In this document: one piece after another, positions 12,060-12,108 of the stretch
Position numbering within the stretch: position 1 is the first letter of the stretch
Layout: every line of letters starts with the position of its first letter
From: Vicia villosa
Lineage: Eukaryota > Streptophyta > Magnoliopsida > Fabales > Fabaceae
Length of the DNA stretch: 64,000 nucleotides
NCBI RefSeq assembly: GCF_029867415.1
Contig: NC_081185.1
Location: forward strand, 137,671,191-137,735,190
Direction: 5' to 3'
Position numbers and translations under genes: made by a program
Notes under the pieces: model-generated
Database searches by the model: none
The model's input: the letters and a program-made list of their open reading frames with translations, nothing else
What the model was told of the DNA's origin: nothing

Positions 12060-12108
12060 ATATGAGGGGAAGGTTTAAAGCACCCCTCATATCTGTGGTA
12101 CTCCACAG
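12060..12108 (-). ncRNA. Conserved double hairpin in Ogre LTR RNA (copy 1)
   Basis: Stem 12060-12069 pairs perfectly with 12083-12092 (10 bp) around a 13-nt loop. Stem 12093-12098 pairs with 12103-12108 (6 bp) around a 4-nt loop, with no spacer. The second Ogre-like element has the same geometry and nearly the same 13-nt loop (one difference), but different stem sequences that still pair perfectly. This suggests a structured element of the minus-strand RNA near the end of R-U5. Function unknown. Confidence 0.6.

Follow-up and report, generated by a model that had tools for sequence, protein, structure and literature searches.

On the minus strand of a 64,000-nucleotide stretch of Vicia villosa DNA (the whole of which is called the window below), two LTR-retrotransposons, E1 and E2, each carry two abutting hairpins close to one end of the LTR. 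The question raised by this locus is whether the double hairpin is an RNA structure kept by selection and, if so, which step in the life of the element it would serve. Structured leaders are a known kind of feature in LTR elements and retroviruses, and the retroviral leader hairpins (for packaging, dimerisation and poly(A)) occupy the same genome region and follow the same general plan.

An Ogre element and an apparently non-autonomous relative

The 5′ LTR of E1 spans 3286 nt (11895–15180, minus strand, TGTCATACC...CGCTACA), both of its ends having been read, and the primer-binding site (PBS, TGGCGACTTCACTGGGGA) lies at 11871–11888. The other LTR is represented by 985 nt at 1–985, which match 14197–15181 at 100%; the element runs off the start of the window. 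Its coding part, likewise on the minus strand, consists of an ORF upstream of gag with a DUF7745 domain split across two overlapping frames (9586–11192), the gag ORF (7623–9428) and a stretch for reverse transcriptase (RT), RNase H, a second RNase H (RVT_3) and integrase (3897–7367). One element encodes an ORF1 protein, part of which has 95% identity to a protein of Vicia villosa. According to the excerpt of PMC6317226, the Tat clade has two RNase H domains, Ogre/Retand elements have the second of these between RNase H and integrase, and the position and orientation of the extra ORF serve as a criterion. In E1, RT_RNaseH/RT_RNaseH_2 is found at 390–520, RVT_3 follows at 596–703, ahead of the integrase parts at 795–967, and the DUF7745 ORFs stand upstream of gag on the same strand. 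We take an extra sense ORF upstream of gag to denote Ogre rather than Retand.

E2 extends from 52931 to 62533 on the minus strand, with a 5′ LTR of 2401 nt (60133–62533) that is 99.6% identical to its 3′ LTR of 2403 nt (52931–55333), a target-site duplication CTATG and a PBS (TGGCGACTCTGCTGGGGA) at 60111–60128. Given the near-identity of the LTRs and the target-site duplication, the element appears to have moved recently, and its sequence suggests that it is non-autonomous. Its interior holds no ORF of 150 aa or more. When four E1 ORFs were compared with E2 by tblastn, a single gag stretch was found (32% over 93 columns, E 7e-11), with no match to RT, RNase H or integrase. Of its 13 minus-strand frames of at least 70 aa, 10 were scanned and had no Pfam domain above cut-off; the other three (one mostly LTR, two in tandem repeats) were left out.

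At the DNA level, the interiors of E1 and E2 share one stretch of 125 columns at 71% and another of 50 columns at 80%. In both elements the LTR starts with TGTCATACCCCAA, and a PBS starting TGGCGACT lies within 4–6 nt after the LTR; a tRNA-Arg PBS is described as Ogre-specific in the excerpt of PMC2206039. The initial annotation had called both elements Ogre-type. This name suits E1, with its Ogre set of protein domains, but not E2 to the same degree: the RT, two RNase H domains and integrase of an Ogre did not appear there in the searches above, and the LTR ends, PBS and gag trace that it has in common with Ogre are those of a non-autonomous relative.

Some further features of the two elements may be recorded here. 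A 95-bp unit is repeated 15.8 times in an array at 1537–3032, downstream of E1 pol; tandem arrays at that place are known in Ogre as a source of satellite DNA (excerpt of PMC7004042). E2 contains arrays of ~70-bp units (55665–56121) and ~50-bp units (58666–58959). The start of the E1 LTR at 15180 falls within a minus-strand ORF (15019–15894) that has a Ty1/copia gag domain, which suggests that a copia gag gene was the insertion site of E1.

Position, folding and rarity of the double hairpin

In E1, a hairpin with a 6-bp stem and a 4-nt loop (12093–12108) adjoins one with a 10-bp stem and a 13-nt loop (12060–12092, loop 12070–12082). The same layout recurs in the 5′ LTR of E2, with the short hairpin at 60304–60319 and the long one at 60271–60303 (loop 60281–60293), and the description first given of 12060–12108 and 60271–60319 was thereby borne out. 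A third copy at 53069–53117, in the 3′ LTR of E2, has the same letters as 60271–60319, and all three copies of the hairpin-bearing LTR part in the window have the double hairpin. Since E1 and E2 both lie on the minus strand, the short hairpin precedes the long one in the RNA.

In the element RNA, the hairpins are upstream of both an AATAAA, a possible poly(A) signal that lies 84 nt downstream of them in E1 (11970–11975) and 70 nt in E2 (60195–60200), and the PBS, which follows 140–170 nt downstream. The distance of 165–215 nt initially proposed between the hairpins and the PBS-side end of the LTR holds for E1 (165–213 nt) but not for E2 (138–186 nt). On the other side, a TATAAA at 60704–60709 in E2, a possible promoter, lies ~385 nt upstream of the hairpins; in E1 there is no TATA[AT]A nearer to them than ~1.4 kb. 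Separately, the letters TGGCGA, with which the PBS starts, also occur inside the LTR, 56–69 nt before its end (11957–11963 in E1, 60182–60188 in E2), perhaps as a second primer-related site, or by chance.

In a context of 273–301 nt running past the PBS, the predicted pair probabilities are 0.77–1.0 overall, with 0.77–0.78 for the short and 0.91–1.0 for the long stem of E1, and 0.99–1.0 and 0.90–1.0, respectively, for those of E2. The 49-mers fold at z −4.0 to −5.1, a value reached by none of 200 shuffles; with flanks of 20 nt on either side, z falls to −2.5 and −2.8 (3 and 1 of 200 shuffles as good). One reading frame is open through the hairpin region in both elements. A search of predicted proteins with a two-row alignment of this frame gave no candidate with three words in common.

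The geometry itself is rare. A scan of the window (loops of 6–16 and 3–8, Watson-Crick pairs only, GC above 15%) returned exactly the three known sites on the minus strand and, on the plus strand, no double hairpin in this hairpin order; the GC limit served to keep out the AT repeat at 43215–43286, which otherwise flooded the scan. None was found on one strand of 60 dinucleotide shuffles. The exact geometry was met once, with an unrelated loop (L131), in 142 other loci that total 1,215,068 bases, scanned on both strands with G-U pairs allowed. A looser scan for abutting stems of 8 and 5 bp found no site in the window but 7 sites in the 60 shuffles; as it misses longer stems, it is no test of these hairpins. 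With the covariance model R1, the three known sites in the window were followed by their own antisense (E 0.17–0.61) and then by noise (E 4.9 and above).

Paired changes in the stems and a conserved loop

Between E1 and E2, 5 of the 16 base pairs differ (three in the long stem, two in the short one), every one of them changed on both sides and none broken. The other 11 are unchanged, one-sided changes do not occur, and all 16 pairs are intact in both families. In the loop, 12 of the 13 bases are identical. Both counts agree with what had been noted at the outset.

If the 10 stem substitutions are scattered at random over the 32 stem positions, five complementary pairs arise with a probability of 2.8e-7. 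This rises to 6.8e-5 when all changes are taken to be transitions, which they are here. Sliding the partner strand by 1–3 columns leaves 0–1 double changes, compared with 5 when it is not slid. In a covariation test that is weak with two sequences, the observed score was reached by 19 of 500 column shuffles. One reading of the data is that the hairpins were accidental in an ancestor and that their agreement, by chance or shared descent, has no function. The comparison is indeed based on two element families only, the feature was selected by eye within 64 kb, and the 19 shuffles also speak for this reading. Nevertheless, it is hard to reconcile with the probabilities of random placement, or with a geometry that is absent from the 60 shuffles and has a single occurrence in 1.2 Mb of other DNA, and we regard it as very improbable. 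Within the limits of two families, the double hairpin is beyond chance.

The conservation of the region was compared by global alignment. Identity is 47% upstream of the hairpins (68 of 146 columns), 73% over the hairpins as a whole (36 of 49), 69% in the stems alone (22 of 32) and 54% from the hairpins to the LTR end (73 of 134). Against the 47% upstream, 12 identical bases out of 13 in the loop have a binomial P of 8e-4. The proposition that the surroundings are much more diverged is thus sound with respect to the loop and the whole hairpins, but less so with respect to the stems alone. By local search, the LTRs resemble each other clearly in only one part, that from the hairpins to the AATAAA (66% over 152 columns, E 2e-10); the LTR start comes second (E 0.011). 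Downstream, AATAAA...GGTGGCGA and the end of the LTR together with the PBS are conserved as well. Judging by these alignments, the hairpins are the best conserved spot of the LTR, though not the sole one.

All five double changes are transitions, grouped in two clusters, and the antisense strand of the hairpin region folds equally well. Both observations would suit a feature that matters as DNA: either the inverted repeats bind a transcription factor or another protein, or the arms are kept palindromic by templated correction between them during replication or reverse transcription, the folded RNA then having no function. Neither correction between arms nor a plain dimer site, however, would lead one to expect an asymmetric 13-nt loop conserved at 12 of 13 positions, or two unlike stems of fixed size side by side. 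We consider a DNA-level explanation rather improbable.

Counted against an RNA function are the sample of two families, the restriction to transitions, the folding of the antisense strand and the conservation of other LTR motifs. The claim of a selected RNA structure is nevertheless supported by the compensation of all five changed pairs, the conserved loop, the stable predicted fold and the retention of the hairpins by E2. On the strength of these comparisons, the double hairpin is probably an RNA structure under selection.

Possible functions of the structure

The explanation that we find best, and put forward tentatively as a whole, is that the double hairpin is a cis-acting element of Ogre-type genomic RNA, located near the 3′ end of the LTR (in R or U5, at a guess), whose loop is recognized by a protein for packaging or reverse transcription. 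The two abutting hairpins would have their stems kept by pairing and their 13-nt loop kept by sequence. Displayed by its stem, the loop would be bound by a protein that marks the RNA as the genome of the element, and the RNA so marked would be packaged into Gag particles or reverse-transcribed from the PBS 140–170 nt downstream. That the hairpins form in vivo, that they act in the sense RNA and which step they serve are all matters that we infer.

Several observations bear on the nature of the partner. The longest word complementary to the loop elsewhere in the element is 7 nt in both E1 and E2, no more than in shuffles, and the idea that the loop pairs elsewhere in the element was dropped. 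As no longer complementary word was found in either element, a protein seems a likelier partner than a loop-loop contact. Dimerisation, one of the roles suggested in the initial annotation, loses ground as well, because the sole change in the loop turns TTTAAA (E1) into TTTACA (E2) and so alters the 6-nt palindrome through which dimers would form.

A role in translation had also been suggested, the hairpins acting in ribosome handling (shunting or internal entry) within a long leader. The leader of E1 is indeed long: ~870 nt separate the hairpins from the upper end of its first ORF (11192). E2, in contrast, keeps the hairpins with no interior ORF of 150 aa or more and only a weak gag trace, which makes this role highly unlikely. 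Showing neither RT nor integrase in the searches above, E2 favours a cis-acting signal over one for translating its own proteins: an element of this kind would need the signals that act in cis, namely promoter, poly(A) site, packaging signal, PBS, polypurine tract (PPT) and LTR ends.

A location close to the PBS and the AATAAA fits packaging or reverse transcription, and it fits 3′-end formation as well. The latter is the main rival among RNA functions. The hairpins, being upstream of the poly(A) signal, would choose or expose the cleavage site, or else mask the signal in the 5′ copy. The AATAAA in both elements belongs to the conserved block, and a non-autonomous element would need 3′-end formation too. 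The poly(A) signal is less conserved in plants, however (excerpt of PMC3601003), and simple spacing would require no fixed loop; we judge 3′-end formation to be unlikely. For the step served by a cis-acting mark, packaging or reverse transcription is our provisional choice, put forward with less than full conviction. It is possible, though doubtful, that the fixed-loop double hairpin is a signal found throughout the Ogre/Tat lineage and kept by non-autonomous elements for mobilisation across families.

Relation to known RNAs and retroelements

A scan of the window against Rfam 15 returned only two tRNAs, and no family, the hammerhead included, reached its gathering score at the hairpins. A known Rfam RNA was ruled out: near the sites, even with hits up to E 10 considered, every score was far below cut-off. 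In viral contigs, the loop pattern was found in 110 stretches, the best three of which had 4 further pairs where 8 are needed; in six of the 110, a PBS-like word of 8 nt lay no more than 600 nt away, but these had no additional pair. The PBS pattern occurred in 23 viral contigs, in none of which the 400 nt upstream contained the loop, and the LTR-start pattern in three, viewed only in the letters around the match. The E1 RT protein had no match in the viral contigs. In prokaryote contigs, six matches were obtained with 0–1 further pairs each. Neither collection yielded a relative.

Hairpins near the 5′ end of the RNA of an LTR-retrotransposon are known from the pseudoknot and kissing-loop hairpins of yeast Ty1, in which compensatory changes restored retrotransposition (excerpt of PMC5454406). 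Ty1 belongs to Ty1/copia, and its pseudoknot has complementary loops, whereas the search for a loop partner here found none longer than 7 nt. In minimal Ty1 and Ty3, sequences at the RNA ends are required in cis when the proteins come in trans, so that protein-less elements in donor-helper assays move if their RNA ends are kept, as E2 apparently did (excerpt of PMC4974528). The double hairpin is not among the Ty3 features given in that excerpt.

Among plant elements, the BARE1/BARE2 pair includes one without Gag that is mobilised in trans and retains conserved signals for dimerisation and packaging (excerpt of PMC3735527); these are Ty1/copia elements, and the likeness to E2 noted here is one of general description. 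Sireviruses, also Ty1/copia, likewise combine conserved non-coding boxes and inverted repeats with otherwise diverged LTR elements. Their palindromic repeats, however, lie upstream of the TATA box and their inverted repeat at the PPT, and the excerpt of PMC2829016 describes no double hairpin before the PBS. Retrozymes provide another case of structured RNA in the LTRs of non-autonomous plant elements related to Ty3/gypsy, their RNA being a hammerhead ribozyme (excerpt of PMC4918200), unlike the hairpins described here, near which no Rfam family reached cut-off.

The literature was searched by topic and by motif strings of 12 and 18 letters, and in the material returned, mostly titles and the beginnings of abstracts, no description of the double hairpin was found; the 12-letter strings matched papers on other subjects, judging by title, and the 18-letter strings had no match. 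It is not described in the excerpts of PMC3601003, PMC3735527, PMC12786077, PMC6911290, PMC2829016, PMC5407846, PMC6317226, PMC11963269, PMC12218528, PMC4918200, PMC2206039, PMC7004042 and PMC4974528. Of these, PMC12218528, on structured RNAs in 130 plant genomes, does not mention retrotransposons in its excerpt. The double hairpin is thus apparently undescribed in Ogre elements, although its absence from print is not proven and it could have been noted in early work on Ogre.

Ogre-like elements make up more than 20% of the pea genome (excerpt of PMC2206039). A survey of LTR structure gives no models for plant Metaviridae, because their LTRs vary in length (excerpt of PMC3601003). With a conserved structured site, plant Ty3/gypsy LTRs, otherwise difficult to align, would have an anchor for alignment, and tests of packaging or reverse transcription in such an element would have a single defined target.

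Other features of the window

Elsewhere in the window, one region is present in inverted copies at 28227–36776 and 47242–50801, with a longest arm of 1717 nt that is 99% complementary, and each copy contains a tRNA-Ser(TGA) gene. An insertion at 30060–34315 has terminal repeats of 228 nt (which agree at 200 of 228 positions without gaps, and at 95% over 203 nt), TG...CA ends and a target-site duplication TACAC. As it is present in one inverted copy and absent from the other, it is probably younger than the duplication. Finally, an ORF at 23081–24148 encodes a 355-aa product that contains a glycosyltransferase family 8 domain and is probably a host gene.
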